From positions 36,572,001-36,636,000 of the forward strand of contig NC_091667.1 in assembly GCF_042453785.1 (NCBI RefSeq): a stretch of 64,000 nt of DNA, written 5' to 3'. The notes under the pieces were generated by a model. That model saw nothing but the letters and a program-made list of their open reading frames with translations. It was not told the DNA's origin and ran no database searches. Shown here one piece after another: positions 25,364-49,707 of this stretch; the first letter of the stretch is position 1; every line of letters starts with the position of its first letter. The stretch is from Malus domestica. Taxonomy: Eukaryota > Streptophyta > Magnoliopsida > Rosales > Rosaceae. The position numbers and the translations under genes are program-made.

Positions 25364-26632
25364 TCATGACGTCCACAGTCCGAAACAGATGAAGAAGCTG
25401 CGATACTCTTTCCTTTGCCATGCCATTGTTGGGCCCATGTCCTCACTTTCCTTTGGTTTTGGTTTCTGTAAAACTTGGAGCTGATTCTGCAGGATCTGTA
25501 CAAGAAAAGCAGTTACTAAGCAGGAGAAATTGGGGGTAACGACCGCGAGGTCACAACAAAAGTTATACATCTTCTCTTTAATACCTCAATCCGGTGCTGA
25601 AGAAGCTTTTTCTGGGCCTCCAGCGGAGAAGCTGTCAGATTTGGATCGCTGCCCAACCTCTCCCCATAGGCCAAGTTGGCTCCGGGGACAAACATGTAAG
25701 GTGGAAACTGAGAGAAGGACAAGTTTGCAGCTCCACCTTGGGCTGCAAGTTGTGGCTGTGATTGTCCAATAGAAGATTCTCCACCAGATTCAGTATTAGA
25801 GGAGTCAGCCGTATGTCTTTGAACCTGAGGAATCACCGTATATCCAGGAGACCTGCATACAAGAGGACATAGTTTGTAAGGCTCTGGCATGCAGCATTCT
25901 ATGCAGTGCAACATATCCAAAGTTTATGTATCAAGCACACTCTCACAAGCAACCTAGAAATAAATTAAAATACAATGGACACATATGATCACTCCACCAA
26001 TAAAAATGTAAACCTTAACTTAGGATACAGGTGTCATTACCATACTAGTCTGTTTGCAGAAGGATATACATAAGACTTCTCATATATTGATGCAGCAGCA
26101 GCAGCTCGGAGCCTGGCTTCATGTTGGCTCACATTATCACCCGCAACTCCACCACCCTGAGCCGTTGTGCCTGTCCCTGTTCCCAATTAAAATCATCAGT
26201 CAACTCGCCACAATTTTATACTGAACAAAAGATCAGAGTCTCAAATGATCAAAATATATTACATAAACAAAGAGCATGAAATCCAACTGGCATTTTATTG
26301 GTGCCTTCGTTTTTCTTTACCCTCAATAATTATCTTACATAAAGGAAAAGGAAATGTAAGTTTAAAAACTACAAAGTTCAGCAATTAAAAACTACAAAGT
26401 TCTTTTCCTTTAATAACCAAATATCGGACCTTATGGTTGTCACACAGAAACTAAAAGATACAACACAAATTGCACTGCTCAGAAGTTTACCCTGTTGATG
26501 AACATCTGACTGTGAACCCCTATGTCCAGCTGTACCTGTCCCACTGTCAGGAGGTACAACTAGGGCTCTGCAAGTAGGGCAGGTATGCTGTCGCTCTAAC
26601 CATGATCGTAGGCAAGCGACATGAAAAAGGTG
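25364..26632 (-). pseudogene. HRD1: HRD1-type ER E3 ubiquitin ligase, 3' part (second half of the RING exon to the stop)
   Basis: HRD1 is the membrane RING ligase that ubiquitinates misfolded ER proteins for ERAD. This part starts in mid-RING: LFHVACLRSW, then CPTC, then RALVVPPDSGTG. Exons are 26632-26491 (the rest of the interrupted exon), 26176-26041, 25852-25585 and 25495-25364, all in frame with GT-AG introns, ending in TGA. The tail is Ser/Gln-rich with a predicted coiled segment (AQKKLLQHRIEILQNQLQ), as in plant HRD1 C-termini. The first half of the same RING exon lies at 46984-47052, beyond 20.35 kb of transposons. The open frame suggests the break is recent. Without the rest of the RING and all membrane helices this piece cannot act as a ligase. 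Confidence 0.92.
26628..26632. repeat. Target-site duplication AGGTG (left) of the Copia insertion
   Basis: AGGTG immediately precedes the TGTAAGAATA end of the Copia LTR and recurs at 46984-46988 directly after the other LTR ends in TTTTACA. Removing the insertion and one AGGTG rejoins the RING codons. Confidence 0.95.
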
Positions 26633-27167
26633 TGTAAGAATAACCCAAGAACTTAACAGCATGGTATTAAGATTACTGGAAAACCAATATGCAGACTAAA
26701 CCTGCATATGCATACTGCATGGCGTTAAAGATATGCATGCATACTAATGTCAGATACTTACCTGTCGCCATTATGCTTCTGGTGCAGGGATGAAGCAATC
26801 TTCTACTTCCAATACCTCCTTTATGAATTCTACTAACGAAATAGGTCTGTAGTGTTGTAATTCGAACAGTATGGAAGCAGGGACTGCTTCTTGGTTTTAT
26901 ACCTAGGGTTTCTATCGATTCCCCCCTATTAACGGAAAGGATATCCACCCTGATATTCTCTAATCAATCAGAGTCCCATCATGACTCTTATTATTTATAT
27001 TCTCTTAATAAAAGACCCCGAAACTGATTGCAAACAATCAGGACTCCAAATATATTCATTCCTTTAAGGTTTCCGAGAATAAAGATTTCATTTGACTTGA
27101 TTACCAAGTCAACTACTTTCTCAAAGATTTTCGGCACAATTCATTGTCCATTCACAAATGTTTTACA
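26633..27167 (-). repeat. Copia 3' LTR (535 bp)
   Basis: It begins TGTAAGAATAACCC and ends GTTTTACA. Against the split 5' LTR I counted three substitutions and one single-base indel by eye. A purine-rich stretch beside it (AAGTGGGAGAA on the minus strand, 27168-27178) is the likely polypurine tract. Confidence 0.93.
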
Positions 27168-28765
27168 TTCTCCCACTTGAATGGCAATGAGAACCCCTTA
27201 ACGAAATAAATATATATGGTGATCACTAGAGTCCTTTCAGGCTTGCAACCATGTCCTTTTAAAGCAACCTGTCACTCTTGAAATTAAATGCAGAACCAAG
27301 GAAATAAAAATACAAGTGAAACTGTATTTTTCCTCCATGATCACATACACACTTAACTTAAGAGCACTGTGTTACTAAAGAGATCATGATGTATAGAACT
27401 GGCAGTCAAAAGTCCAATTCCTCACAACACAAACTGAATCATTTATCAGTACAAAATTATATGTCAAAGAAACTTCAAATATTAATTCTCAATACAATAG
27501 CCAAATAACAATCCAAAATAAATCTGAAAGAAACGGTTATCAATTAATCGAGTGCTTACTCCCACTCATTAACTGAATCAAAAGTCTCTCTAACGCCCAT
27601 GTTGTAGACATGCCGCTTAAAGACTCCCACTGATAAAGCCTTTGTCATAGGATCAGCTATCATCAACTCAGTGTTGATATGTTGAATGTCCACCGTCCCC
27701 TTTCTCACTTCATCTCTAACCTTTAGATACTTTATATCCATCAGTCTGCAAGCCAACGACCTTTTGTTGTTCTTTGAGAAGAACACTGAAGCCTTGTTGT
27801 CACAATATATTCTTAATGGTTTCTCAATGTTGTCAACAACCCTCAGTTCTTTCACCATATTTCTTAACCAAATAGCTTGTTTGGTTGTTGCATAACATCC
27901 AATAAACTCAGCTTCCATAGTGAAGGACGCAATAGAGCCTTGCTTCGCGCTTTTCCATGAGACAGCTCCACCCGCGAGTAAGAAAATATAACCATTGGTT
28001 GATTTTCTGTCATCCACGCATCCAGCTAAGTCCAAATCTGTGTATGCCACCAGCTGCAGGTTATCAACATAGCTATAAGTCAGCATATAATCCCTTGTCC
28101 TCTTCAAATACCTAAGAACCTTCTTGGCTGCAATCCAATGAGATGTGCCAGGATTTGATTGAAATCTTCCTAGTACACTCACTGCAAATGCTAAGTCGAG
28201 CCTAGTGCATACTTGAGCATACATTAAACTGCCAACTAAAGACGCATAGGGCTTGTCCTTCATGCTTTCCTTTTCCAACTCATTTTTGGGACTTTGTTCA
28301 GTACTCATTTTATCCCCTTTCCCAATAGGTAATTCTCCACTAGAGCACTTCTCCATGTTGTATCTTTTGATGACTCTATCAATGTATTGTTTCTGAGAAA
28401 GACCAAGAACCCTTTTGCTATGATCTCGTATTATCTCAATACCAAGCACAAACTGAGCTTCTCCCAAATCTTTCATATCAAAGCTTTCTGTTAACAGTTT
28501 CTTGGTTGCATGTAACAATGATATATCCGAGCTTGCCAATAGTATATCATCGACATATAAGACCAAGAATATGAACTTAGAATCACTGACCTTTAAATAC
28601 ACACATTCATCCATCTTGTTCTGTTGAAAACCTGCTGCCATTATAACTTGATCAAACTTCTTGTTCCACTGTCTTGAAGCCTGTTTTAGCCCATAAATGG
28701 ACTTGTTCAATTTGCAGACCAATGATTCCTTCCCCCTTTCAACAAATCCTGGTGGTTGTGCCATG

Positions 28766-29981
28766 CAAAGAATTAAATATCGATATTATCGGCGAAATAT
28801 CGCCGATAATATCGTTTTTTTCCAACAGCGATATTTTCAGAGTATTCCAATTGATTATCGTGATAATATCACGATATTATCGATAATATCGATAATATCG
28901 CGATATTATCAATAATATCGATAATATCGCTCTCTCTATCCGTCGTCGGAACGGCAGCCGAGCTCCGTCGTCGCAGCTGCCAAGATCTGCGCCTCTCACA
29001 GGTGGTGATGGTGCTCGCCGGAGTGTGCGCCACAGTGGAGGTCACGGTGTCATCTGCCATTATCGCAGAGGCTGGAGAGAGAAGACTGATGATGTGTGAT
29101 GATGGTGGTGTCGTCCTCGAGCTGCTCGAGTCGAGCAGATGGTGCTGCTGCTGTGTGTGTGTGTGGTCACGGCAAGAGAGGGAGAGAGGTAAGAGGATTT
29201 TGAGAGAGAGAGAGAGAGACAGTGCAGAGAAGAGAGAGAGAGAGTCGAAGTGAGTGAGAGAAGGAAATGGCTTGGTCCCTGGTGTGGATTTGCACTTTGA
29301 AGTGTGTCTGTGCGTGTGTGTGTGTGTGTGTAGAAGTGTGTGTTTGTGCGTGTGTGTGTGTTATCCGAGAGAAATCCACACTTTGAAGTGTGTGTCTGTG
29401 CGTGTGTGTGTGTGGAAAGGAAAGAAATAATAGAAAATGAGGGAGTGGGGTGTGTCTGTGTGTGTGTGAGTGTGTGTGTGTGTGTGTGTGGAAAGGAAAG
29501 AAATAATAGAAAATGAGGGAGGTACTACATCCCACGTGAAGAAGGAAGAAAGGTAGTAAAGAAATGATGGGTGCGGCAGTATGTCAGAATTAGGGTAGAT
29601 TTAAAAACTAAAATATGAGTTTTACTTGAAAGTTGTAGTAAATCATTATATATAAATAATTATGGTGTGTTTAATTTTTTTTTCATTAATTACTATATAT
29701 TTTATTCACTCACAGTGTTTGCCAGCTCGCTGTATAATCAACTTAAATCAGTTAAATCCATCATGTAATGCATTTTCTTCCAATTTTTTGTGATAAACTA
29801 ATAGATAATTGACTAAATAAATATCCTGCAAAGTTTCAATAAAAATTTCCAAGTTTTTCTTACAATTTCCGTGGTTTCCATGTAATTTTTATCGATATCG
29901 ATATTATCCCGATATTTCCATCGATATTTCCGTGTTTTCGGACTACCGATATTTCCGATATTACCGATATTTTCTTCCTTG
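28766..29981. mobile_element. hAT-like non-autonomous element (1216 bp) in the Copia RT
   Basis: GTGCCATG flanks both sides (28758-28765 and 29982-29989), the 8-bp target duplication typical of hAT. The ends are inverted: CAAAGAATTAAATATCG at the left and, inverted, CAAGGAAGAAAATATCGG at the right. Next to both ends are arrays of ATATCG/CGATATTATCG motifs. The centre has GC-rich sequence, GA runs and TG runs, and no transposase. Removing it restores the RT frame YMAQPPGF. Confidence 0.9.
29289..29492. repeat. (TG)n-rich repeat with an internally duplicated block
   Basis: Several TG runs lie inside the hAT-like element. They are separated by repeats of CACTTTGAAGTGTGT and of GGAAAGGAAAGAAATAATAG (29413 and 29491). 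It is likely replication-slippage DNA and is non-coding. Confidence 0.75.
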
Positions 29982-32900
29982 GTGCCATGTATATGTCTTC
30001 CTCCAAGTCTCCATTGAGGAAAGCAGTCTTGACATCCATCTGATGAAGCTCAAGATCAAAGTGTGCAGTGAGAGCTAAAAGAACTCGCATGGAATCCTTG
30101 GTAGATACAGGAGATAAGGTTTCATTGTAATCGAATCCTTCTCTCTGCGTAAACCTTTTAGCCACCAGTCTTGCTTTATGTTTGTCAACTTGTCCATGAG
30201 AATCCCTTTTTGTTTTGTAGACCCATTTGCAGCCTATCACTTTAGTAACTTGCTGATCATTGGGGACTAAGGTCCATACATCATTCTTGTGCATTGAATG
30301 CAGCTCTTCTTCCATAGCTGCATACCATAGTTTGGACCGAGCACTCGAAACTGCTTGATTGAAAGAGATAGGATCATCATCATCTCCTACATTATGCTCA
30401 GCCTCATTGAGGTATACAAAGTCTGAGGAAATGTTTGCCTTTCTTGTTCTTTGAGAGCGCCTTATATGTTGTGCATCTTGTTGAACCTCATTTGGTACCA
30501 GGACGGATACATCTGCTGCCTCATTGATGACAATAGAAGGCGATACCATAGTATTCTCAGTTGGTGGCATCACGTTTTCATCATTGTGATCTGGAAGCAC
30601 TGTCTCAGCCTCTTGAAAATTGTGTGTGTCACTTTGGAGCAACAGTGGTTGTGGTATCTCAGTGACGTCGACAGTGTCGTTTGGCAGATCAAGTAATGAA
30701 GGACTTATGGTTTCTTCAAATTCAGATGTTGGTCGAGCTGATGTACAAATGGAACCCTCTTCAACAAATTTTGCATTATTAGTTTCCATAATGCGTGTGC
30801 TAGAATTGGGACAGTAAAATCTGAATCCTTTGGACTTATCTGGATAACCAATAAACCAACAGCTAGTTGTTCTTGGATCCAACTTCTTCTCATTTGGGTT
30901 ATAGAACCTGGCCTCAGCTTTACACCCCCACACATGGAAATGATTAAAGCTAGGTTTCCTCCCTGTCCAACATTCAAAAGGTACTAACTTCACTGACTTG
31001 CTTGGAACACGGTTTAGGATATAATTAGCAGTTTTCAAAGCTTATCCCCAAAGAAAAATCGGCAATTGTGAGTGTGCAAGCATTGATCGAACCATATCCT
31101 TGAGAGTCCTGTTCTTTCTTTCTGCTACTCCATTTTGATGTGGAGTGCCAGGGGTTGTATATTGGGCAACAATGCCATTTTGTTCAAGGTAAGTTGCAAA
31201 AAGTCCCTTGTGCTGTCCAGTTTCAGTATACCTGCCAAAATACTCACCACCTCTATCGGATCTCACAATCTTAATTCGTTTTTCAAGTTGTTTTTCAACC
31301 TCCAAATGAAAATTTTTAAAACAGTCAAGTGCCAAAGACTTATCAGAAATAAAAAACACATGAAAACCTTGAAAAATCATCAATAAAAGTTATGTAATAA
31401 CTGTTCCCACAAATTGTTTTATTCGGAAATGGTCCACAAATATCAGTGTGAATTATTTCTAGCAAGTTTTGACTTCTATTCGAACCCATCTTTCTGGTAT
31501 TCGTGAGCTTTCCCTTAAAACAGTCAATACAATCCTTAAAATCACTGAAATCTAGCTGTGGCAACAAAAGCTGTTGTGAAAGTGCTAACATTCTTTCTTT
31601 TGAAATATGGCCCAGCCTTTTATGCCAAAGTATTGATGATTTTTCAGAAGTTATGTTGCTTTTAGAACTATTTAGTGACACATTAAAACACTCATTGTAG
31701 TAGCTACAATCCATTTGCCACATATCAGTTTTGAGAAAAGCACTTCCAAGCAAGGTGTTCATATTATTCGAATGGAAAAATTTTACACTTTCATTGTCTC
31801 CAACAAAAGTGATTCCTGACTCAACTAACTTTGATGCTGAAATTAAACTCATTCGCATTGAAGGTACAAATAAAACTGGACTCAAAGACAAAACAAAACT
31901 CGATGCTAAAACTAATTTAACACTGCCCACAGACTCCACAGCCACCTTGCTCCCATTTCCCACAAAAACGTTGTAGACCTCATTGTTTATTTCCCTTGTT
32001 TTTGAGAACCCCTGCAAATAATTGGTTATGTGGATGGAACATCCAGTGTCAAACCACCAGCTTTGAGGAGGAATGATAATTAAATTCGATTCAACACAGA
32101 CAAAAACATTAATAATTTTACCTTTCCTAACCAGCCAGTTTTTGAAACCAATGCAATTCTTCCTCATGTGGCCTGTTTCTTTGCAGAAATAACACTCCTT
32201 ATCTTTATCATTTTCAGTGTTTATAGGTTTAAGTTTGTGAGATCCTTTAAAAGTGTTAGTATTCTTAATTGAAGGGTAAGAGTTGACCTTCTTTTTCTTC
32301 TTGTTGGCAGTATTCATAGGACTAGTACTTGGAACTCTATTGCCTTTTTCAGTTTGAACAAAATGCACTTCTGCATTCTTATCAGTTTTCAGCCTGTCTT
32401 CTTCTTGAGCACACATTGAAATTAATTCATCAATACCCCACTTGTCTTTCGAAGTGTTATAAGACACCTTGAGTTGACCATATTTCGCAGGGAGCGAATT
32501 CAGTGCCATATGCACCAGAAACTGATCAGTCACAACCACTTCAAGATCTTTGAGCTTTAGAGCAAGGTCTGCCATTTTTAGAATGTGCTCACGCACACTC
32601 CCAACTCCATCGAACTTTATGGAAGTGAGTTGAGTGAGAAAAGTCCCAGTCTCAGCCTTCCCAGATTCTATGTATTTTTCCCCAATGGCAGCAAGAAAAG
32701 CCTTGGCATTGGTGTGCTTTGGAATTCCTCCTTTCACCGACTGAGCCATGGCCTTCTTCATGATCATTATTGATATTCTATTGGCTCTCTCCCATTTTTC
32801 AGACTTAATCCTTTGATCTGTAGTGCTTTCAGTAGTGATTACTGCAGCCTGATATTCTCTTAAGGCCAGATCCAGATCCATCAGTCCCAACACTATCTCA

Positions 32901-33153
32901 ATATCCTCTTTCCATTTTTTAAAATTCGAACCAGTCAATGTTTCAATGTTAGTAAAATTGAGTGACGTGGTTTGAGTAGCTGCATTCAGCAAACAAACAA
33001 TTTATTAACATTTCATACAAAAGTTTATAACAGATATAAAGAAGAAGCTTATGACAAGTTTCTTCATCCTCTCAATAGCATATAAACACAACAACATCTT
33101 TGGACTGAAGTTGCTTATATTAGTTTTGCATAATCCAAACATAGAACACAAGG

Positions 33154-33184
33154 GTAATATATATATATATATATATATATATAT
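33154..33184. repeat. (AT)n microsatellite in the Copia leader
   Basis: About fourteen AT units lie between the Copia primer-binding site and gag. A second run is at 33511-33554. Confidence 0.9.
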
Positions 33185-33505
33185 CCAACACTTTTGAGCA
33201 GATGGATTACACAATCTTGTCAGTTCCATGTTCCATTATACACTAACTCATTCGAATTTCAACAATAGTAATTAAACACCTTTAGGCAGATTAATAATTT
33301 TTACATATATCAAATGAGTCAGATCCAATCACTTGGACAATAATCAACCAAAGCACACTAAACACTTTTGAGCAGATTAACGTTTATGAGTCTTGAAATT
33401 ATATTCATTAGTATAACTTTGATGAATAAATGTTCTTGTAGTCAGGTTATGACCCACGTACATTGTCTCTCTGTTTCCTACCTGAACCTGTCGAGGATTA
33501 CGCAG

Positions 33506-33510
<5 letters not shown>

Positions 33511-33554
<44 letters not shown>
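33511..33554. repeat. (TA)n microsatellite in the Copia leader
   Basis: About 22 TA units, the longer of two AT runs in the untranslated leader of the Copia element. Confidence 0.9.
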
Positions 33555-33558
<4 letters not shown>

Positions 33559-33677
33559 ATTTATCATTTATACATGTCAGGAATTATCAGTGCAGCGGAA
33601 GTTTATTATCACATGAATTTTATTGTCTATGGATCATATCTGTAAGTCCTTATATTGAATCCTAACCATACTGTGTG

Positions 33678-33689
33678 GCTCTGATACCA
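33678..33689 (-). other. Copia primer-binding site (initiator tRNA-Met type)
   Basis: The minus strand reads TGGTATCAGAGC just inside the 5' LTR (33692). This is the standard plant Copia site for priming by the initiator methionine tRNA. It fixes the element's orientation and the inner LTR edge. Confidence 0.95.
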
Positions 33690-33691
33690 CA

Positions 33692-33803
33692 TGTAAGAAT
33701 AACCCAAGAACTTAACAGCATGGTATTAAGATTACTGGAAAACCAATATGCAGACTAAACCTGCATATGCATACTGTATGGCGTTAAAGATATGCATGCA
33801 TAC
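33692..33803 (-). repeat. Copia 5' LTR, fragment 1 (inner end)
   Basis: These 112 bases match 26633-26744 with one difference (TGTATGG for TGCATGG). The Gypsy element begins at 33804 and interrupts this LTR. The last five bases, CATAC, are the target duplication. Confidence 0.95.
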
Positions 33804-34324
33804 TGTTGATGCACAAAATCTGCGAAGACTTTGGTACAACAGAAAGTGTCAGGTTTTGTGACCTTCGCTTGGTTGCTTGGTTGCTTCAGTCACTAGTGAG
33901 GATAAGTACGTAAATGAATAGAGACAGAGAAGCAAACACAGGATGTACGTGGTTCACCCAGATTGGCTACGTCCACGGAGTAGAGGAGTTCTTATTAGTA
34001 GTGAAGGGCTTACACAAGTACAAAGGATCAAGCTCTCAATTTAGTGAGTTCTTGTGAATGATTTAACACAAAATGGCATTAGGCAATATTGTGGGGGAAT
34101 GACCCCTATTTATAGAAAAACTTGTAGCTTTGTCACATTGACATGTGTCATGTTATGATTGGTTCTTGATGTTGACACGTGCTGCGCTCTGATTGGCTTC
34201 TAATCTTGACACGTGTCGAGTAGTGATTGGCCTCCTGGTCGGAGGGGAACTCTTCTGGGTCCTTGACAGTATAGCGTTGGCCGGTGCTCGGTAGTTTCGG
34301 GATTGGTCAAGTATGGTACAAACA
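33804..34324 (-). repeat. Gypsy 3' LTR (521 bp)
   Basis: On the element's strand it runs from TGTTTGTACC to GCATCAACA. I found no difference from the 5' LTR in a by-eye comparison. Next to it (34325-34336), the minus strand reads TTAGGGGAGCAC, the probable polypurine tract. Confidence 0.95.
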
Positions 34325-36216
34325 GTGCTCCCCTAAGTTCCCGAGTGAGGGAAACTCCTCGGTTGGGGACTTGCAAGATCCAATCCCTTGAGTAATCACG
34401 AAACTTCTAAGTACCGAAGTGTGGTCTGATCTTCATCTGCCCTTCTCTGGAAGTACCTTTCCTCCATCCGGGAATGGTGTACTTAGCTGATGTTGACGCA
34501 CAAGGTAATGTATCAATTTCACTTGAAGCTTAGTTGTAGTTTCGGGCTTAGTCAAGTGTGATACAAACCCTATAGTAGGAGTCCCCCAAGTCGCCGAGCT
34601 AGGAGATCTGCCGAAAGAGGTGACAGACAAGGTAAGCAGTCAAACTTCCAAGTAAGCAACCCAGGATCAGAGGTTTGACGTCGGCTTCCGGTTGATTGTT
34701 CTCATTCTCCTTGTCTCTCATTCAACTGCCAGGATAAGGAGAAGCAAATGGATAAGAGATGATATGAGATACTTTTGCTTTTGAAGAAGTAACTTTCCAC
34801 AGGCTTATTCTTGAACTGTGCTGGAGGGTTTTCTGGTGCCCTTCAGAGTATAAGGCCGACTCAAAAATTTGAGGGTCAAAACAAGTCCATCAAATCTAGA
34901 GTACGTTCGACCTTGATGATATGGGATACTTTTGCTGTTGACGGAATAATGAATGTGGTATGGAAAGGTGTCGTGCTGTAGTGATCTGTTTCAGCTCACC
35001 GTTGAACCTTCTGCTTCAATCTTTTGCATGGCAGAAGTGGTGTGCAACCTTTGCATTTAAATGGTCCTTCAGAACATTCCTTCATAGTGACTCATCCACG
35101 CTTGGCAGCTTCAGTGTAAAGAGCCAATATCTGATCAACTGTCATGAGGTATTTGCCGGTGGAATTCGTGACCTTGACAGCAGTTGAGGATGAGTACTCG
35201 AGAGCAATGCTAAGTAAGCAACCAGGCAAAGGCTCCAGGCAGTCAGTTCCAAATTGGAGGTTTGATTTCAGGTTCCGACTGACTGCTCTCTTTCTCCTTG
35301 TCCTGCAGGTGTGGACAAGGACAAAGACAAAGACAGGGAGAAAGCATGATATGGGATACTCTTGCTTTCGACCCTGATGATATGAGATACTCTTGTTCTT
35401 GGTGTGGCTTATTTGCTGAGGTATTATCGGGGGGAAATAAAGCTGAGTATTTCGAGAGGTTATGTTGAGGGTGCCTTTTCGAATGTGAGAAAGGGTTGAG
35501 CATTTTTGCAGGTTTGCCTGTCCGTTGAGGAGGGAGGTCAATGTATATAGGGATTTCCCAATAACAAGTAGTAATGCTATTCCTTTACCCTTCTTGGTCA
35601 CAGCAATGTAGTGGGAGCTGCCAGCTTCACGTGTTTTAATTTTGTCAGAGCACTTTGAAAAAGTGGTATGTGGTATCTGGAAAGCTGATATTACGTGTGG
35701 AGATTACAGACAAGCTTTATCTAAGGAAATCTGGCTCTCGAAGTTCTGAGAGTTGTGCCTCTTCGGTTTTCGAACAAGCAATCCCGTCGAGGATCTGACT
35801 CTCGAGATTCGGAAAGCGGTGCTACTCCGGTTTTTGAGAAAGTAATTATGTTGGGAGTCTTTTCTCGAATGTGAGTAAAGGTTGGTCGTTATTGCCAACC
35901 TGTCTTGCCACAAAACACGGAGGTCGACACACATAGGGACTTTCCAGTTGTCAAGCAGTGGTGCTGTTCTTTTACCCTTATGGGTAATAGTAGGGTAGCT
36001 GGCACTTCGAAATTCTCGTGCCTAAACTTTGTCAGAGATCTTTGACAAAGTTATATGTGGTACCCGAGGAGTTGATGGTGCATATGGAGAGCGGTGATTG
36101 ATCAGTAAGATTCACGTGCTTTCTACTTCACCAGAAATCTTCGACAGATTGCCCGTAATTTCCGCAAAGCTGATTGTGCATGTGACAGGTGCTGACGAGG
36201 CTGCAAAAGCAGGTGC

Positions 36217-36360: not shown

Positions 36361-36494
36361 AAGCTCCGTCGAGTACAGATTTTTATAGAGGCTGACATTA
36401 AGTTCCACAGCACACTTGAATCTCTACCAGTAGAAGCTCATTTCTTGCACTTCTAAGATCTTGATTTGTCTGACCTCTTCCTTCTTCAACACAT

Positions 36495-37685: not shown

Positions 37686-37780
37686 ATCATAATGGAAGCA
37701 TCACAATGATGGAAGCATCACAATGATGAAAGCATCATAATGATGAAAACACCATAATGATGAAACATCATAATGATGTT
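37686..37780. repeat. Short tandem repeat (about 18 bp) in the Gypsy 3' region
   Basis: Degenerate units of the type AATGATGGAAGCATCACA / AATGATGAAAGCATCATA repeat about five times. Confidence 0.85.
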
Positions 37781-37839
37781 TCTTTGGTGGAATTGTTTTT
37801 CATTTCCCCTAACAACCGGAATTGTTTTTCAACATAACA

Positions 37840-38640
37840 CCATCATCTGTAGGTTGAATCACAAAGTTGTCTTCATGAAAGTTGTTCGTTAATTCCTTAA
37901 CTACAACATATCCAAATTGGAGAGCCATCGGAGCAGTACAACTCCAGAAATCCAGGTATGATGAGTGACTGTTTATCATTTGTCTGTCAACCCGTCAGAT
38001 TTGTTGTGAGCTTTGAAACTCTATTTTCTCTTGCTCAGATCAGCATGCTTTCTTCATTGAAGTTGTTCCTCAGCTTGTGAACTACAACATATCCAAATTT
38101 GAGATCCCTCGGAGCTGTATAACTCAAGAAACTCAGGTATGATGAATGACTGGTTATTATTTTTCTGTCAACCCGTCAGATTTGTTGTGAGCTTCGAAAC
38201 TCCATTTTCTCTTGTTCAGATCGGTATGCTTTCTTCATTGAAGTTGTTCCTCAGCTTGTGAACTACAACATATCCAAATTTGAGATCCCTCGGAGCTGTA
38301 TAACTCAAGAAACTCAGGTATGATGAATGACTGGTTATTATTTTTCTGTCAACCCGTCAGATTTGTTGTGAGCTTCGAAACTCCATTTTCTCTTGTTCAG
38401 ATCGGTATGCTTTCCTCATTGAAGTTGTTCCTCAGCTTGTGAACTACAACATATCCAAATTTGAGATCCCTCGGAGCTGTATAACTCAAGAAATTCAGGT
38501 ATGATGAATGACTGGTTATTATTTGTCTGTCAACCCGTCAGATTTGTTGTGAGCTTCGAAACTCCATTTTCTCTTGTTCAGATCGGTATGCTTTCTTCAT
38601 TGAAGTTGTTCCTCATCGACTCTTTCATAACATATCAAAA
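37840..38640. repeat. 181-bp tandem repeat array in the Gypsy 3' region
   Basis: The marker TCTGTCAACCCGTCAGATTT occurs near 37983, 38165, 38346 and 38527, a period of about 181 bases, giving roughly four units with a degenerate first copy. Inner units are nearly identical. The unit has no long frame. A satellite-sized repeat inside a retrotransposon is a possible satellite source. Confidence 0.88.
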
Positions 38641-39182
38641 ATTCAGGATGAACTAACGGTTAAATATTTCCAGATCTTCGAAACATCACAACAGCTTCGA
38701 AATCTGCAAGAAGCCGACTATCATGTTTGGAGCTTCAACACTTTAATTTCCGTCGCTCAAACAGAAATGGTTCCTTCTTGAAAGTTGTTCATATGCTCAA
38801 GAACTATAGGGTGTCCAAAATTCAGCTCCATTGGAGAAGAGCAGAGGTTGCAGAAATTTGATAGATGAAAGGAGGCGGAAGAGGGAGAGAGAGAAAAAGT
38901 CTCTTGGGTTGGATTTCTATTTTGGGGCAGATTCCAATTTTTGTAGCACCTTCATTATTGATGAATTGCTTGTACTTTTGTCCATTATGAAATTTGGGAC
39001 TTTGGCTTGTTGTTGGATCTATTATAATATGTTTGGGAACATATATAAGTGAATAAATAAGAAGGAAAATTTTGGGCCCTTGTGGGTGTAAAACAAAAAA
39101 TGTTTATGTTTACCCAAGTGTTTTTGTACAAGTTCAAGGGCATCTTGGGTTTTGTGAACAAAATTTGTTTATTTGGAGCAAG

Positions 39183-39672
39183 GTTTTGTGTTGAAGCTTT
39201 GTAGGTGAAGCTTTGGTGTTGAAGCTTTGTGGGTGAAGCTTTGGAGGTGAAGCTTTTTGGGTGAAGCTTGTTGGGTGAAGCTTTTTAGGTGAAGCTTTGT
39301 GGGTGAAGCTTTTTAGGTGAAGCTTTTCGGGTGAAGCTTTTTGGGTGAAGCTTTTTTAGGTGAAGCTTTGATGGTGAAGCTTTTTGGGTGAAGCTTTTTA
39401 GGTGAAGCTTTTTGGGTGAAGCTTTTTAGGTGAAGCTTTGATGGTGAAGCTTTTTGGGTGAAGCTTTTTAGGTGAAGCTTTTTGGGTGAAGCTTTTTTAG
39501 GTGAAGCTTTGATGGTGAAGCTTTTTGGGTGAAGCTTTTTAGGTGAAGCTTTTTGGGTGAAGCTTTTTAGGTGAAGCTTTGATGGTGAAGCTTTTTGGGT
39601 GAAGCTTTTTAGGTGAAGCTTTGTGGGTGAAGCTTTGGAGGTGAAGCTTTTCGGGTGAAGCTTTTTGGATGA

Positions 39673-39708
<36 letters not shown>

Positions 39709-39709
39709 G
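39183..39709. repeat. GGTGAAGCTTTTT(A/G)G minisatellite with a poly-T end
   Basis: About thirty units of roughly 15 bases vary only in the T-run length and in variants such as TTTGTGG and TTTGATGG. Higher-order blocks with GATGGTGAAGC are visible. It ends in a run of about 35 T. It lies directly downstream of gag-pol in the element's own direction. Confidence 0.95.
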
Positions 39710-39919
39710 CGCTTGACACGGTCTTCATTTGCTTGTTTTGTAGTGACTGTGGAAGACAGATTGCTTTCTGATTGAGAAGGGTTCCGGCATCGCTTGCTAT
39801 GAATGTAAAAGAGTGAGGGCTGAGTTGGCTAAATTACCTCTTTATTGAATTCATTGCCAAATGGCCTTCATTACATAGGATGCCGAACGGCTATAGCTCA
39901 ACACTTGTACATCGTGAGT

Positions 39920-42900
39920 CTATTTGTAGTAGTACTTCAAGTGATCAGCGTTCCATGGATGGCCAAGGGTCTTGCCATCGGAGCTTCTAAGTGTGTAAGA
40001 GCCAGGGCGACTGATGCCAATGACTTCATACGGTCCATCCCAGTTTGGACTAAGTGTGCCTTCACTCGGGACTCTATCGCAGAGTAATCTTTTCTTTAAG
40101 ACCCAGTCTCCTATTTTGAAAGAACGAGGCTTGACCCTAGAGTCATAATAGTTGGAGATGCGCTGCTTGTAGGCGACATTCCTCAAGTGAGCTTGGTTTC
40201 TGTGTTCCTCGACTAAATCCAAGTTGAGGGTGAGTTGTTTGTCATTTTCACTTTGAATGTAGTTCTGGACTCGGAATGTTGCTTGCTCGAGCTCAACAGG
40301 GACAACCGCCTCTGTGCCAAAGGCAAGTGAGAATGGAGTTTCTCCTGTTGAAGTCCGATATGAAGTGCGATATGACCAAAGAACTTGGGGTACAAATTCT
40401 GGCCAACAGCCTTTAGCTTTGTCCAAGCTGGTTTTCAAAGTGCGCTTGATTATTTTGTTGATGGCCTCAACTTGTCCATTAGACTGGGGATGAGCTGGAG
40501 AGGCAAAGCATAAGTTGATGTTGAACTTAGAGCAGAACAACCTGAACTTCTTGTTGTCAAACTGTCGCCCATTGTCAGTGACTATCGCATTGGGAATGCC
40601 GAATCTACAAAGGATGTTCTTCCACACGAAGTCTTCTATCTTTGCCTCAGTAATGGTTGCCAAGGGTTCTACTTCGGCCCACTTTGTGAAGTAGTCCACT
40701 GCAACGACTGCGTAACAGACTTTGCCCTTCCCTGCCGGCATTGGGCCGATCAAATCAAGTCCCCACTGGGCGAAGGGCCAAGGGCTGATCATAGGAGTAA
40801 GAGGCTCTGGAGGGGAATGAGGAATAGCCGCATATCGTTGACATTTGTCACATGAGCGGGATACTTTGATGGCATCCTGGTGGAGTGTTGGCCAGTAATA
40901 TCCTTGGCGAAAAGTCTTGTGTGCTAGGGACCGAGATCCAGCATGATCTCCACAGACTCCCTCATGTATTTCCCGAAGGACGATTTCCGCCTCGGCAGGC
41001 GTAAGACACCTTAAGTATGGCAGGCTAAAACCTCGCTTATAGAGTTGATCATTGATGATCAGGTAGCGGGTAGACTTGTATCGAATTTGCTTAGCCTGGA
41101 CTTTATCATTTGGGAGGGTGCCATGAGCAAGGAAATTATAGATCGGGGTGATCCAACTATCCCCCCGTTGTAAGTTGCATACTTCTGCGGCCATGGTGCT
41201 TGGTGTTGCCAACAGTTCGACATGAATTTTTCTTCCAATCTTGTCTTCCACAGCTGAGGCGAGGCGAGCCAGGGCGTCTGCATGACTGTTTGCCGCTCGA
41301 GGAACTTGGGTGATCTGGTAGTGGAAGTGCTTGAGCAAAAGTTGTGTTTGCGCAAGATATGCTGCCATGGAGCTGTCCTTAGCATCAAAGTTGTTGGTAA
41401 CCTGGTTGACCACTAATTGGGAGTCACTGAAAATATCAATTTGTTTAACCCCGAGGTGTTTGGCCAAACGTAATCCTGCTAGAAGGGCTTCATACTCGGC
41501 CTCATTGTTTGATGCCTTGAATTTGAAACGAAGAGCATACTCCATTGCTACTTTGTCGGGCGTAGTCAAGACTAGTCCCTCTCCACAGCCCTGTTGGTTG
41601 GATGAGCCATCAACATACAGACTCCATGCTGAGGTCGTTGATTCTACTTTCTGAGCTTCCGATGGTAATGAAGCTACTGCTTCAGGTGTAGAATCAATGT
41701 CAACATGATATGTGAAGTCAGCGATGAAATCTGCTACTGCTTGGCCCTTCTCAGCTGGCTTTGGTTGGTAGGAGATGTCAAACTCACCCAACGCTATTGC
41801 CCATTTGATCATTCGCCCTGAAGTGTCAGGACTTTGGAGTATCTGTCGAAGAGGATAATTGGTAAGCACGATGATGGAGTGCGCTTGGAAGTAAGGGCGG
41901 AGTTTTCGAGCAGACATGACCAATGCCAGAGCCAATTTCTCAATGTTAGAGTACCGTGTCTCCGCATCTTGTAAGGCTTTGCTAGCGTAGTAGACAGGTC
42001 GCTCAATATTCCCATCCTTTCGAATGAGAACGGAACTTACGGCTGAAGCTGATACCGATAGGTAGATAATGAGAATGTCTCCTACCTCGGGCTTGGAGAG
42101 TAGAGGGGCTTTACTCATGTACTCCTTGAGGTTTTTGAATGCCTCGGCACATTCATCAGTCCATGTAATGTACTTCCTACTTCCCTTAAGTGCTTTAAAA
42201 AAGGGAGCACATTTGTCTGTGGCCTTAGAAATGAACCTGGTTAAGGCTGCCACCTTGCCAGTAAGGCTCTGGATGTCCTTTGAAGTTACCGGTTCCTTCA
42301 TGTCGAGGATTGCTTTGATCTTCTCGGGATTAGCTTCAATGCCTCGTTGGCTAATCATGAAACCTAAGAATTTGCCAGAGCCTACGCCGAAGGCACATTT
42401 GTTGGGGTTTAACCTCATTCGATACCTCTTCAAAATAGTGAAAGTTTCATATAGGTTGGTGATGTGTTGGTCAGCATGTTTGCTCTTGACTAACATATCA
42501 TCAACGTAAACTTCCATGCTCTTCCCAATCTGATCGGCGAACATTGAGTTGACTAGTCTCTGATAAGTCGCTCCTGCATTCTTTAGGCCGAAAGGCATGA
42601 CTTTGTAGCAGTATAGTCCTCTGTCGGTAGTGAAGGCTGTGTGTTCTTGATCCGAAGGGTTCATGAGGATTTGGTTGTATCCTGAGTAAGCATCCATGAA
42701 GCTCAGGAGTTCACACCCGGCCGTAGAGTCTATAAGTCTGTCAATAAGAGGAAGAGGGAAGCTATCTTTCGGACACCCTTTGTTTAGGTCGGTGTAGTCA
42801 ACACACATTCTCCACAAGACCTTTTGAAGCAAAAGACTTTCTTTGGTCGGATTTTTCTTAACAAGGACCACATTTGCTACCCATGTCGGGTAATTGACTT

Positions 42901-45900
42901 CGCGGACAAAGCCTATGCCTTTGAGTTTTTCAACTTCTGCTTTCATTGCCTCGTATCGTTCAGCATCATAAGATCTTCGCTTCTGTCTCACCGGCTTGAT
43001 CTTGGGGTCAATACTCAAACGATGACAGATGACATCGGGAGAGATGCCTGGCATGTCCTCGTATGACCAGGCGAAGACTTCAGTGTTCTCTTTCAAAAAA
43101 GATATCAATGCTAACCGAAGGGGTGGTGACAATGTGGTGCCAATCTTCACCATGCGATCTGGATAATCTCTTGAGATAGGTACCTTCTCCAACTCTTCAG
43201 CAGGCTGGGCTTGCTGGGTGAAAGAGTCATCTCGAGGATCATCGGGTTGATTGTTGCTATCAGGAAGATCCAAGTTCGCTTCATCTAAGCTGGTCTTTGT
43301 GACTTGGTCATGTACAGACAGGGTTTCCTTGGGTCCGGGCAAGTGTTGTTGCTTAACTGAAGTGTTGTAACATGATCGTGCACTAAGCTGATCTCCTCTG
43401 ATGTAGCCGTTGCCATGGGGGGTTGGAAATTTCATCAACAGCATATGCGTGGATACCATAGCCTTGAGATCATTGATGCCTGTGCGCCCAAAGATGACAT
43501 TGTATGCCGTTGGGCAGTCAACCACTAGGAAGTTAGTGGTAATGGTAGCCGTGTAAGGGCCTGTACCAATAGTAAAGGGTAAATGTATGCTCCCTAAGGG
43601 TTGCACGATATCACCGGAGAAGCTTATCAGAGGAGAAATCGAGCGATCGAGCAAGTGTTCAGCTACACTGAGCGCCCTGAAAGCTTCGGCAAACATGATA
43701 TTGACCGAAGCCCCTGTGTCTACGAGGATTCGTCGAACATCAAAGTTGGCTATGTGAGCCTCCACGATCAATGGGTCGTTATGAGGGTAGATGATGCCTC
43801 TTTCTTCCTCAGGGTAGAAACATATCGGATCCCAGTTAGGTTTTTGACACTTCCCTCCCCTGATGTCTTCCACGTGAAACACTTGGTGACCAGGCCTCAG
43901 ACTTCGTTCACTGTTTTTCATGGCCCTATTGGAAGATTCAGATATGGGTGTGCCGCCGCTTATGGAATATATGACATTCACCTGGCGTTGGTTACGGTTA
44001 TCCCTTTGAGGGTGAAGAAGGAATTGATCAATTTTTCCTTCTCGTGCCAAAGCTTCAATACGATCACGGAGGATGATACATTTCTCGCTATCATGGCCGT
44101 TATGCTCATGGTAGCAACAAAACGTGCCCGCGTTATTCGGGGGCGTGTAATCTGGGTGCCTCGGCTTTGGTTTTGGTATCAGGTGAGCTATGCTGGGGTA
44201 AATGGCCGCGCATGTGGCATTCAAGGGCGTGTATGTCTCATACCTTGGGGTAGGGGGTATCTTGACGCGGGTTTGACCCACTGCATTGACTGCCTGGGGG
44301 CGAGCGTTATTGTGGCGATACCCTTGGTTATCGGGATAGTGTCCCTTACTCTTTTTACTGAAAGGAGAGTGGTGAGGATGGAAATCCTTCCTCTTGCCTT
44401 GAAATTGATATGTCTGTTGATTCGGTGAAGCATTATGCAAGGCATGGGGAGGTGCCACTGCTGTTTGGGAAGTCGAGGTCTTCTCATTTAGGTGAGTCTG
44501 GCTTCCACCTCCCACTTGTTGATAAAGGATGGTTGTAGGGGGTTTCTCCTGATATGTCTTTGCCTCGGCGGAGGCATGGTTATAAGCCTGCGCCATCACC
44601 TCAGAGTAAGTCTTCCAAGTATTGGCATTGATCATGTATTTAAAGAAACAATCACGTAGGCCTGCCGTGAAGGCTTTGAGGGCAGTCTTGTCATCTGCTT
44701 CGGCACACCGGGAGTATTCATGGCTGAAGCGGCCAGCATACATACGTAATGACTCGTCTGGCTTCTGGCGGATAGTGTACAAGTCATCTGCAGAGTGCAA
44801 GCGATCGGTTTGGAAAATGTGTTGGGAAACAAATAGTTTCCTCAATTCCTCAAATGAGTCTACCGTCTCAGGTGTAAGACGACAATACCAATTTAGAGCT
44901 CCACCAGAGAGGGTGGAGGGGAAGAGAAGACATCGCTCTTCGTCGGTGTGCATCCGGTATGCCATGGTGGACTCAAAGAGGTTAAGGTGCTCAATCGGGT
45001 CCTCTTTTCCAGTATAAAGTTGCAAGCCAAGCTTTTGCTTTGTCTTTGCTTGAAGGGGGGTGTTGAGGATCCTCCTTGTAAGAGGGCCAGGCCTGGGTTG
45101 GTTCCAGTCAGGTATTTCAGCCTGACGTTCAGCCTTCAACTTGTTTACTTCCTCAAGAAGTTGTAGGACAAGGGGGTCCTGAGCGGAGTTATGTGTCACT
45201 AGAGCTTTCTTTCGTAAATCTCCATCTCCTCTTGGAATTAGGAAGGTTTGATCAAGGGCATGTGATTTTTCCCTGGACTCGCTGTACTGGCTTCCAGGGT
45301 ATGTCTGTCGGAACACCTCTGAGTCCCCTGTACCCTCATGTCTCTCTGGGACTTGTTGCCCCTTCCCCAAATTGGTGGCCGGCTTGGGCCGTGGCAGGGG
45401 ACCGAGTCTCTCAGAAATCCTTGGGTCATTAATCTTTGAGCTTATATGGATGGAATTCTCTCGACGTTGCTTCAGGAAATCCCGACAATCGCGAAAGACG
45501 GCTTTCGATCCTTCTGCCCCTTCAGTAAAGAGGTGTCTCCCTCCACTTCTCATGGTTCGGGTTGAAGCAACTGGGTTAAGAGAAGCCTCATGTTGATTAT
45601 CAAGTCGAGGGGTAATCTGTTCCCTATCAGGGATATCTATGTCGAATACATGTGACCCTCCATGTTGGAGGGCACCCAGTTGATGGTTGACTTCCACGGG
45701 GGCAACAAGCTCGCGTGTCTGAGCTTGCCTAGCTTCGTGGAGTGTCTCGAAGAGCTTCTCATATTGCTCCTGGAGGACCTCATTCTTCATTGCTATCTTG
45801 TTGTTCTGAGCTTCCAACTCATCGACTTTAGCTTGAAGAAGAACTCGTTTTCCTTCCTTCTTTCGTTGTTTCGCACTATGTGCAAGGGGGGTGTCATTCT

Positions 45901-46048
45901 GTGTGTTGTGGCTTCCTTCGCTTCCCATGTTGGAGAGGGATGCCTGGTCAAAAGAAAGTGTACGAATGATAGAAACCAGCTTGACACAGCTGAAGAGAGT
46001 AGGAATAAGTGTCGTTTCCCACAGACGGCGCCAAATGTTGATGCACAA
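39920..46048 (-). CDS. Gypsy gag-pol polyprotein, uninterrupted 2042-codon frame
   Basis: One open frame encodes all retrotransposon functions. Real translation probably starts at MGSEGSHNTQ (about residue 41), because the frame's first codons lie in the LTR and primer-binding site. In order: an N-terminal coiled coil (KVDELEAQNNKIAMKNEVL), retrotransposon gag (about residues 350-500), and aspartic protease with ILVDTGASVNIM (about 775). Then follow reverse transcriptase with MPFGLKNAGATYQR and YVDDMLVK (about 1183), RNase H, and a second RNase-H-like domain (LYVDGSSNQQGCGEG, about 1480). Integrase has its zinc module (HAGSRSLAHK and CDKCQRY, about 1700) and DDE core (WGLDLIGPM, VTDNGRQFD). 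The end (DHLKYYYK) follows a GPYEVI-type segment. Protease and polymerase motifs are intact, and with identical LTRs the element may be autonomous. Confidence 0.95.
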   Translation of the reverse strand: MCINIWRRLWETTLIPTLFSCVKLVSIIRTLSFDQASLSNMGSEGSHNTQNDTPLAHSAKQRKKEGKRVLLQAKVDELEAQNNKIAMKNEVLQEQYEKLFETLHEARQAQTRELVAPVEVNHQLGALQHGGSHVFDIDIPDREQITPRLDNQHEASLNPVASTRTMRSGGRHLFTEGAEGSKAVFRDCRDFLKQRRENSIHISSKINDPRISERLGPLPRPKPATNLGKGQQVPERHEGTGDSEVFRQTYPGSQYSESREKSHALDQTFLIPRGDGDLRKKALVTHNSAQDPLVLQLLEEVNKLKAERQAEIPDWNQPRPGPLTRRILNTPLQAKTKQKLGLQLYTGKEDPIEHLNLFESTMAYRMHTDEERCLLFPSTLSGGALNWYCRLTPETVDSFEELRKLFVSQHIFQTDRLHSADDLYTIRQKPDESLRMYAGRFSHEYSRCAEADDKTALKAFTAGLRDCFFKYMINANTWKTYSEVMAQAYNHASAEAKTYQEKPPTTILYQQVGGGSQTHLNEKTSTSQTAVAPPHALHNASPNQQTYQFQGKRKDFHPHHSPFSKKSKGHYPDNQGYRHNNARPQAVNAVGQTRVKIPPTPRYETYTPLNATCAAIYPSIAHLIPKPKPRHPDYTPPNNAGTFCCYHEHNGHDSEKCIILRDRIEALAREGKIDQFLLHPQRDNRNQRQVNVIYSISGGTPISESSNRAMKNSERSLRPGHQVFHVEDIRGGKCQKPNWDPICFYPEEERGIIYPHNDPLIVEAHIANFDVRRILVDTGASVNIMFAEAFRALSVAEHLLDRSISPLISFSGDIVQPLGSIHLPFTIGTGPYTATITTNFLVVDCPTAYNVIFGRTGINDLKAMVSTHMLLMKFPTPHGNGYIRGDQLSARSCYNTSVKQQHLPGPKETLSVHDQVTKTSLDEANLDLPDSNNQPDDPRDDSFTQQAQPAEELEKVPISRDYPDRMVKIGTTLSPPLRLALISFLKENTEVFAWSYEDMPGISPDVICHRLSIDPKIKPVRQKRRSYDAERYEAMKAEVEKLKGIGFVREVNYPTWVANVVLVKKNPTKESLLLQKVLWRMCVDYTDLNKGCPKDSFPLPLIDRLIDSTAGCELLSFMDAYSGYNQILMNPSDQEHTAFTTDRGLYCYKVMPFGLKNAGATYQRLVNSMFADQIGKSMEVYVDDMLVKSKHADQHITNLYETFTILKRYRMRLNPNKCAFGVGSGKFLGFMISQRGIEANPEKIKAILDMKEPVTSKDIQSLTGKVAALTRFISKATDKCAPFFKALKGSRKYITWTDECAEAFKNLKEYMSKAPLLSKPEVGDILIIYLSVSASAVSSVLIRKDGNIERPVYYASKALQDAETRYSNIEKLALALVMSARKLRPYFQAHSIIVLTNYPLRQILQSPDTSGRMIKWAIALGEFDISYQPKPAEKGQAVADFIADFTYHVDIDSTPEAVASLPSEAQKVESTTSAWSLYVDGSSNQQGCGEGLVLTTPDKVAMEYALRFKFKASNNEAEYEALLAGLRLAKHLGVKQIDIFSDSQLVVNQVTNNFDAKDSSMAAYLAQTQLLLKHFHYQITQVPRAANSHADALARLASAVEDKIGRKIHVELLATPSTMAAEVCNLQRGDSWITPIYNFLAHGTLPNDKVQAKQIRYKSTRYLIINDQLYKRGFSLPYLRCLTPAEAEIVLREIHEGVCGDHAGSRSLAHKTFRQGYYWPTLHQDAIKVSRSCDKCQRYAAIPHSPPEPLTPMISPWPFAQWGLDLIGPMPAGKGKVCYAVVAVDYFTKWAEVEPLATITEAKIEDFVWKNILCRFGIPNAIVTDNGRQFDNKKFRLFCSKFNINLCFASPAHPQSNGQVEAINKIIKRTLKTSLDKAKGCWPEFVPQVLWSYRTSYRTSTGETPFSLAFGTEAVVPVELEQATFRVQNYIQSENDKQLTLNLDLVEEHRNQAHLRNVAYKQRISNYYDSRVKPRSFKIGDWVLKKRLLCDRVPSEGTLSPNWDGPYEVIGISRPGSYTLRSSDGKTLGHPWNADHLKYYYK
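46018..46035 (-). other. Gypsy primer-binding site
   Basis: Directly inside the 5' LTR the minus strand reads TTTGGCGCCGTCTGTGGG. TGGCGCC starts are typical of plant Gypsy elements primed by tRNAs other than initiator Met (tRNA-Asp type is my guess). The gag start follows after about 110 bases. Confidence 0.75.
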
Positions 46049-46556
46049 AATCTGCGAAGACTTTGGTACAACAGAAAGTGTCAGGTTTTGTGACCTTCGC
46101 TTGGTTGCTTGGTTGCTTCAGTCACTAGTGAGGATAAGTACGTAAATGAATAGAGACAGAGAAGCAAACACAGGATGTACGTGGTTCACCCAGATTGGCT
46201 ACGTCCACGGAGTAGAGGAGTTCTTATTAGTAGTGAAGGGCTTACACAAGTACAAAGGATCAAGCTCTCAATTTAGTGAGTTCTTGTGAATGATTTAACA
46301 CAAAATGGCATTAGGCAATATTGTGGGGGAATGACCCCTATTTATAGAAAAACTTGTAGCTTTGTCACATTGACATGTGTCATGTTATGATTGGTTCTTG
46401 ATGTTGACACGTGCTGCGCTCTGATTGGCTTCTAATCTTGACACGTGTCGAGTAGTGATTGGCCTCCTGGTCGGAGGGGAACTCTTCTGGGTCCTTGACA
46501 GTATAGCGTTGGCCGGTGCTCGGTAGTTTCGGGATTGGTCAAGTATGGTACAAACA
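46036..46556 (-). repeat. Gypsy 5' LTR (521 bp)
   Basis: It is identical by eye to 33804-34324. As the upstream LTR on the minus strand it should contain the promoter for gag-pol (see 46340-46457). Confidence 0.95.
46336..46457 (-). promoter_or_regulatory. Probable Gypsy LTR promoter: G-box/CCAAT repeats and TATA box
   Basis: On the element's strand, CTATAAATAGGGG (about 46336-46348) is a good TATA box. Upstream are three imperfect repeats of about 33 bases, each with a (G)ACACGTG or ACATGTG core next to ATTGG/CCAAT (cores near 46374, 46406 and 46440). CACGTG is the G-box/ABRE core used by bZIP and bHLH factors. The same arrangement is in the 3' LTR (34106-34225) and, diverged, in the LTR at 49708. 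Confidence 0.65.
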
Positions 46557-46561
46557 CATAC

Positions 46562-46983
46562 TAACGTCAGATACTTACCTGTCGCCATTATGCTTCTGGT
46601 GCAGGGATGAAGCAATCTTCTACTTCCAATACCTCCTTTATGAATTCTACTAACGAAATAGGTCTGTAGTGTTGTAATTCGAACGGTATGGAAGCAGGGA
46701 CTGCTTCTTGGTTTTATACCTAGGGTTTCTATCGATTCCCCCTATTAACGGAAAGGATATCCACCCTGATATTCTCTAATCAATCAGAGTCCCATCATGA
46801 CTCTTATTATTTATATTCTCTTAATAAAAGACCCCGAAACTGATTGCAAACAATCAGGACTCCAAATATATTCATTCCTTTAAGGTTTCCGAGAATAAAG
46901 ATTTCATTTGACTTGATTACCAAGTCAACTACTTTCTCAAAGATTTTCGGCACAATTCATTGTCCATTCACAAATGTTTTACA
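46562..46983 (-). repeat. Copia 5' LTR, fragment 2 (outer end)
   Basis: It continues the LTR interrupted at 33803 and matches 26745-27167, apart from two substitutions and one C-run indel. It ends TTTTACA, followed by the target duplication AGGTG at 46984-46988. Confidence 0.95.
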
Positions 46984-47746
46984 AGGTGTCCACATAATAG
47001 TTTCTTGGCTGTTGTCATCTCTTCACGGCAAATGATACAAGTTGCATCACTTCTGCATATTGATAATCAACAACTAAGACTCCAAATGCAGAATTTGATA
47101 ATTACAACACTTGAAACTAATTAGACTTTAAACTTACGCATTAAGTTCTTCAGGCGTAGCATCTGGGAATCGATCATTCATGTTTGATGTGAGCTTTCGA
47201 TAACGAATATAATCAGCAATGCGAATCTTAAAGTTCCTAAATGTTTCATAGAGCTCACGTATCAAGTGCAATGGCACACCATAGTACCTGGGATGGGACA
47301 ATACTCCATGTCAATCAAGATAGAATAACCTCAGCTTATGCACGTCAACAAGCAAAATTCTCCCCATGCTTAAAATTTAAATTGGTAGGATTTTGGTCCA
47401 ACTACTGTATCATATTCTAACTTCATGCCCACAGCTTCTCTGCCACTACGGAGCCGTTGCATTCAACACAGATTGAGCCCAACATGTTCTCCAAATTGTG
47501 TCATATTTAGCGAAAAAAATGTGTGTGTAAGCAACTTATCTAAACCTAAAGATAAACAGAAATACTCACGTGAAAATCACGAGGAAGAAGCACAAATACA
47601 GAGACAAGTGAAGCAAGTCCCGAATAAGTTCCAAGTAGAACGTGTAGACAGGCTTCTTCTCCCATTGTCCCTCCATAAGCATGTCAGTAACATAGAAAAC
47701 ATATTTCACAAATGTTGACACTGTTGTTGTTGCTAGTATCATGTAC
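46984..47746 (-). pseudogene. HRD1: HRD1-type E3 ligase, 5'-truncated part up to mid-RING
   Basis: Exons 47746-47570 (YMILATTTVSTFVKYVFYV and on, the last membrane helices), 47287-47138 (YYGVPLHLIRELYETFRNF to PEELNA) and 47052-46984 (SDATCIICREEMTTAKKLLC, then GHL) match plant HRD1 and join in phase. The last exon stops at the Copia insertion between Cys-x-His and Phe-His of the RING-H2. The reading frame resumes at 26632 with no codon lost apart from the 5-bp duplication. The N-terminal exons (roughly the first 180-190 residues, including most membrane helices) are absent. Upstream of 47746 there is intron-like sequence to about 48010 and then a KDEL receptor fragment. This copy is dead on two independent counts. 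Confidence 0.92.
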
Positions 47747-49705: not shown

Positions 49706-49707
49706 TT

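Follow-up and report, generated by a model that had tools for sequence, protein, structure and literature searches.

Transposons nested in the RING-H2 exon of a truncated tandem duplicate of HRD1 in apple

The stretch of apple (Malus domestica) DNA analysed here (contig NC_091667.1, positions 36,572,001 to 36,636,000; 64,000 nucleotides, with no N, hereafter the window) carries a copy of HRD1, the gene of a RING-H2 ubiquitin ligase of endoplasmic-reticulum-associated degradation (ERAD), the coding sequence of which is interrupted by a nest of transposons. The nest consists of a Copia long terminal repeat (LTR) retrotransposon that holds a hAT-like element with an 8-bp target duplication and a Gypsy retrotransposon with a 5-bp one, as the first-pass annotation of this DNA had described; the Gypsy element was now placed specifically in the right LTR of the Copia element, and the boundaries proved readable, as had been claimed, nearly to the base.

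Sequence matching placed exon 2, the first exon left in this HRD1 remnant, at 47570..47746 and exon 3 at 47138..47287, both on the minus strand, as is the rest of the remnant. Exon 4 is found in two parts, an upstream half that contains the RING through Cys-Gly-His-Leu (46984..47052) and a downstream half from Phe-His-Val that includes the duplicated target (26491..26632), and exons 5-7 lie at 25345..26176, the final exon having an 8-bp deletion after 25419. When the host flanks of the Copia element are joined, they give SDATCIICREEMTTAKKLLCGHL followed by FHVACLRSWLERQHTCPTCRAL, an uninterrupted RING-H2 sequence for which the best match among solved structures was 'E3 ubiquitin-protein ligase synoviolin' (E 5.6e-18). 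In place, this exon is separated by 20,356 bp, including one target copy, and the break separates the His of Cys-Gly-His from that of Phe-His, which in the ligand order of RING-H2 domains is a position between zinc ligands. The joined flanks thus bear out the earlier proposal of an insertion in a coding exon, between ligands of the RING. The target duplication AGGTG (5 bp), which had been called exact at both edges, was found at 26628-26632 and 46984-46988, with each junction string unique within the window. As for the codons themselves, the position given for those through Cys-Gly-His-Leu stood, but the Phe codon starts at 26626 and not at 26632, the bases 26632-26628 being the duplicated target.

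Without exon 1, the remnant lacks the start codon and 177 of 543 residues. Upstream of exon 2 there are only about 270 bp of intron 1 before the duplication junction described below. On the Pfam family PF25563, exons 2 and 3 of the remnant span positions 176-232 and 235-268 and the exon-1 part of a plant HRD1 sequence spans 1-174, so that the remnant is without about two thirds of the membrane domain. The plant HRD1 query found remnant exons 2-5 at E 1e-8 or better, and its residues 1-170 were not found in the window (best E 0.25). Control searches with spiked exons of 20, 30 and 45 residues recovered them at E <= 0.01 in 23-25 out of 25 trials per setting when identity was 75-85%; at 60% identity, the numbers were 12/25, 24/25 and 24/25, respectively.

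The genome searched comprised 651 Mb in 19 contigs, of which C7 contains the window (C7:36572001-36636000). A query at the right edge of the insertion gave five matches, all of which were scored: the window itself, C7:36637902 (99%) and three places on contig C1. At the second of these, just past the end of the window and some 18.9 kb from the remnant on its right side, lies a complete HRD1 with seven exons and 543 open codons (67582-64609 when the numbering of the window is continued, with exon 1 at 67582-67050); the fetched flanks contain no N. Its RING exon is uninterrupted and carries the unoccupied site GAAAAAGGTGTCCAC with a single AGGTG. This second intact HRD1 with an empty site had been predicted past the end of the window from the window alone, and was found there; the empty site with one AGGTG that the first-pass annotation had envisaged is thus present in this genome, in a paralogue. 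HRD1 exon 1 matched at two places, both scored, namely the complete C7 copy and C1:32146319 (96%).

Compared with the complete C7 copy, the remnant has lost 8 bp from its last exon, with a shift of the frame, and 3 bp from exon 5; besides the 8-bp deletion its exons differ at only 4/1088 sites. As the 8-bp deletion is absent from both of the C1 last exons recovered, as well as from the complete C7 copy, it is derived. The splice sites of the complete copy were assigned by hand, and those of the remnant look normal; judged from its sequence, the remnant is not far decayed.

The origin of the remnant is indicated by the self-comparison of the window, in which 16327-24828 is repeated, with insertions, at 48018-64000, the main blocks being 92.8-100% identical. 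Unit 1 of this tandem duplication (16327..48017, about 11.3 kb without the nest) has its right end within the HRD1 remnant, and unit 2 (48018..64000) extends past the end of the window to about 66942. One 696-bp block is identical between the units (19953-20648, 56318-57013), which elsewhere differ by 2.6%, a rate at which such identity has a chance of about 1e-8; recent gene conversion is likely for this block.

At the duplication junction (48012..48026, break at 48017/48018), HRD1 intron 1 is joined to exon 2 of a gene resembling ERD2, the KDEL receptor. The remnant matches the complete HRD1 intron through ...GATT, with two substitutions nearby, and matches ERD2 from ATTTATCGG onward, the three bases ATT being common to both parents; by its form, this junction is of the end-joining type and unlike an assembly overlap. 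The left ERD2-like gene (15440..17318, plus strand, exons matched piece by piece; Pfam ER lumen retention receptor, 8.2e-25) has its exon 1, and 16327, the counterpart of 48018, lies in the middle of its exon 2. The right copy, a remnant identified by matching to the left one (48018..49006, plus strand), has no exon 1 and begins in mid-exon 2; compared with the left copy it is one base short in exon 3, at 48371, and there is a further one-base difference between the two at 17271, on the edge of the last exon. The outer copies of both genes thus have exon 1 and the inner copies are cut, as a simple tandem duplication predicts. With a close complete paralogue, shared flanks and disabling lesions, the HRD1 remnant has the features of a tandem-duplicate pseudogene. 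The claim that the nest splits a whole HRD1 gene consequently fails: the interrupted copy is devoid of exon 1, fused to an ERD2-like exon and frameshifted.

Two interpretations were rejected, that of a whole HRD1 gene with a new insertion, as there is no exon 1, and that of HRD1 having been removed from the plant. For the latter, in which the insertion would have split the only HRD1 gene and caused a natural loss of this ERAD ligase, it can be said that the interruption of the RING exon is just as the first-pass annotation gave it; by the complete 543-codon HRD1 just outside the window and the exon-1-bearing copy on C1, however, it is refuted for this genome.

Taken together, it is very probable that the nest sits in a dead partial HRD1 copy made by a tandem duplication of the end-joining type. 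What can be read directly are the boundaries, the absence of exon 1, the duplication junction, the deletion and the empty site of the complete HRD1 next to the remnant; we infer that the remnant is without function and that the duplication preceded the Copia insertion. In this scheme, the duplication would have broken ERD2 in exon 2 and HRD1 in intron 1 and would have produced a second 3' portion of each gene, that of HRD1 (exons 2-7) being without a start codon; at the outer edges, both genes would have kept a copy that has exon 1. The HRD1 remnant, presumably free of selection, could for this reason have gained both the frame-shifting 8-bp deletion and the Copia element in its RING exon, a hAT-like element sits in the Copia body, which it may have entered before or after the Copia element moved, and a young Retand-type Gypsy element would have landed in the right LTR of the Copia element. 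Most likely, therefore, the nest entered an HRD1 copy that was already dead.

The junction and the lesions also bear on whether the duplication could be an assembly artefact, with two haplotypes joined end to end and the nest in one allele of a whole HRD1. False duplications from divergent haplotypes are a documented class of error, according to the available part of PMC9516828, and a 525-bp stretch occurs twice in the right unit, its three copies in the window differing pairwise at 13-19 of about 523 sites. However, the join is base-exact with a 3-base overlap and there is no N in the window or its flanks, unlike what an overlap join would give; each of the truncated copies has a lesion of the frame (8 bp in HRD1, one base in ERD2) while the outer HRD1 is open; and C1 has its own tandem array of HRD1 with exon-1-less remnants. 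An artefact of this kind is thus quite improbable.

The relative timing was examined from divergence. Counted in aligned blocks inside the window only, the duplication units differ at 181/7646 sites, or at 181/6950 without the identical 696-bp block, compared with 3/534 for the LTR pair of the Copia element (Fisher p 0.0036 and 0.0012, respectively). With the rate for Rosaceae given in the accessible text of PMC11197308, 4e-9 per site per year, these values would correspond to about 3 My for the units and 0.7 My for the Copia element, with the Gypsy element younger than about 0.7 My. Several observations weigh against this order of events, or against so simple an origin. Beside the nest, only 21/2479 sites (17/1391 in non-coding sequence) set the remnant apart from the complete gene, a divergence not distinguishable from that of the LTR pair (p 0.79; non-coding, 0.31), so that the local clock alone does not put the duplication first. 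Divergence is also uneven along the unit, from 0/696 in one block to 36 mismatches over 719 aligned columns in another, and gene conversion or mixed origins are therefore likely. In addition, the plant pseudogene survey of PMC7935947, as far as its available sections go, saw no preferential fragmentation of tandem pseudogenes, and a truncated tandem copy would thus not be the typical form. Finally, if the duplication arose by exchange between Copia-bearing and Copia-free chromosomes, the Copia element could be the older of the two. With a local divergence like that of the LTR pair and an uneven one along the unit, the main argument for this order of events is that the site in the sister copy is unoccupied, which fits a Copia insertion after the duplication.

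The opposite order would have the Copia element enter a complete HRD1 allele, the 3' part of which was later set beside an intact copy by exchange with a Copia-free chromosome. The 2.4% divergence of the units could then be divergence between haplotypes, and the remnant beside the nest is only 0.85% diverged, near the value of the LTR pair. With only three bases common at the junction, however, the exchange was not homologous, and this order requires a heterozygous HRD1 null and a second rare event, neither of which the simpler order requires; we consider it unlikely. The stronger version, in which the Copia element broke a complete HRD1 allele, and the locus was then restored by an illegitimate exchange that set an intact copy beside the broken one, appears slightly less likely again. 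If it were true, then together with the array on C1, which has likewise accumulated exon-1-less HRD1 remnants, one of them with an LTR element, it would mean that at this end of both duplicated chromosomes copies of an ERAD ligase are made, broken and backed up time and again.

The HRD1 copies on C1 also bear on the preferred reading, insertion into an already dead duplicate. There are three, with aligned blocks about 85-92% alike, and collinear matches suggest that C1 and C7 are homoeologues. The rightmost copy, known from exon-by-exon matching, has exon 1. C1 remnant 1 (C1:32111873-32119084) lacks exon 1 and has stop codons in its RING exon, and its exon 6 is split by a 5.3-kb LTR element (12259-17560 in a numbering in which the remnant occupies 11873-19084) with the duplication GTTTG and LTRs that differ at 13/289 sites; apart from the nest, this is the only LTR element seen in an exon of HRD1, and it too lies in a remnant without exon 1. 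C1 remnant 2 has an altered zinc-ligand stretch, LLFGYLFH in place of LLCGHLFH. No exon 2 match was obtained in the C1 remnants, so that their breakpoints differ from that on C7. Of the three HRD1 remnants, the two that were examined for insertions (all but C1 remnant 2) thus each have an LTR element in an exon, and neither of the two exon-1-bearing copies does, numbers too few to serve as a test.

Within the nest, the Copia element (26633..46983, minus strand; about 6.4 kb without the inner elements) was recognized by its LTRs and Pfam domains. Its left (3') LTR of 535 bp occupies 26633..27167 and its right (5') LTR, cut by the Gypsy element, lies at 33692..33803 and 46562..46983, the pair showing 3 mismatches and one 1-base gap across 534 compared bases. 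The direct LTRs with TG...CA ends and the 5-bp target duplication are those of Ty1/Copia elements, as are the domains Retrotran_gag_2 (1.4e-17), gag_pre-integrs and RVT_2 (1.4e-37 and 2.1e-29). The 5' LTR is adjoined by TGGTATCAGAGCC, which we take to be the primer site. The coding region is interrupted twice, by the hAT-like element and by a frame change that lies between 31343 and 31038. With 40 of 101 genome candidates scored, the best matches to the LTR outside the window were 89% identical, and the family looks sparse in this genome.

The hAT-like element of 1216 bp (28766..29981) is located in the reverse transcriptase region of the Copia element. It is flanked by the 8-bp duplication GTGCCATG (28758-28765 and 29982-29989) and ends in short, imperfect inverted repeats, a combination typical of hAT elements; the sole open reading frame (ORF) of at least 120 aa wholly within it is simple-repeat sequence. 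The complete Copia/hAT junction was found only at the window's own place among 40 scored of 780 genome candidates; of the other scored candidates, six places match the Copia side and the rest the hAT side, some with few flanking bases.

The Gypsy element (33804..46556, minus strand; 12,753 bp), which lies between copies of CATAC (33799-33803 and 46557-46561), has LTRs of 521 bp each with no mismatches. Pfam searches in three pieces gave the domain order RVT_1, RT_RNaseH, RVT_3 and rve, that is, reverse transcriptase, RNase H, a second RNase H and integrase, an order that marks the Tat group, and the element was assigned to the Tat/Retand type. Between pol and the 3' LTR there is a long stretch with tandem-repeat arrays and an antisense ORF of 226 aa (36495..37175, plus strand, from the ORF list), as in Retand elements. 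Every scored match of the LTR was at a rounded 100% (40 scored of 2183 genome candidates), and by this measure the family is abundant and young. The LTR length, the internal region (11,711 bp) and the pol-to-3' LTR stretch (5,595 bp) are within the ranges for Retand elements in the available part of PMC11963269, and the structure as a whole fits this lineage. The TRP28 domain named in that text was not found in the one antisense ORF scanned here, which showed no Pfam family above cut-off.

In PMC7935947, from the sections available, tandem and proximal pseudogenes were in excess over functional loci in five plants, with grape excepted for the tandem class. The HRD1 remnant resembles tandem-duplicate, non-processed plant pseudogenes in its neighbouring copy, retained introns, homologous flanks and disablements, and differs from them in being truncated, a state to which that survey drew no link; where it was cut, the gene to which it is fused and what was inserted afterwards are specific to this locus. 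Nested elements with the oldest at the base were described for a 22-Mb maize region (PMC2773423, seen in its available text), and here too LTR retrotransposons were inserted into each other, but the base of the stack is in a coding exon, albeit of a truncated copy. In Arabidopsis there are two functionally redundant Hrd1 homologues, HRD1A and HRD1B, according to the available text of PMC6677890; this genome likewise has two exon-1-bearing copies, on C7 and C1, and differs in the three further exon-1-less remnants seen beside them. Our literature search yielded no paper joining HRD1, an exonic retrotransposon insertion and a pseudogene, and none on this locus among the matches listed. The locus is most likely an ordinary case of transposons piling into a dead-looking gene copy, and a clear example of how transposons gather in remnants of tandem duplicates while the copies that have exon 1 remain clean. 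It also illustrates that a base-exact observation may mislead when the neighbouring sequence is not checked, the split exon being part of a duplicate that is truncated; annotation at this locus should record neither a whole HRD1 gene, nor a loss of HRD1, nor a very long HRD1 intron.

Other features of the window were also noted. The 525-bp stretch found twice in unit 2 (49179-49703 and 53447-53974) and once at 17488-18010 encloses, in unit 2, about 3.7 kb that begin with a Gypsy LTR and gag, 82-85% identical to the Gypsy element of the window, with no second LTR found; the region 49179-53974 may represent either an insertion that was rearranged or a third unit of which part is lost. An ORF at 12799-13185 on the minus strand, which matched no Pfam family, contains what is presumably the start of exportin 1, and a 368-aa ORF at 53933-55036 likewise had no Pfam family. 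Laccase-like (multicopper oxidase) copies occur in both units, at 21644-22831 and 58828-59988 (Pfam match for the right copy), and their proteins are nearly identical across the aligned part.

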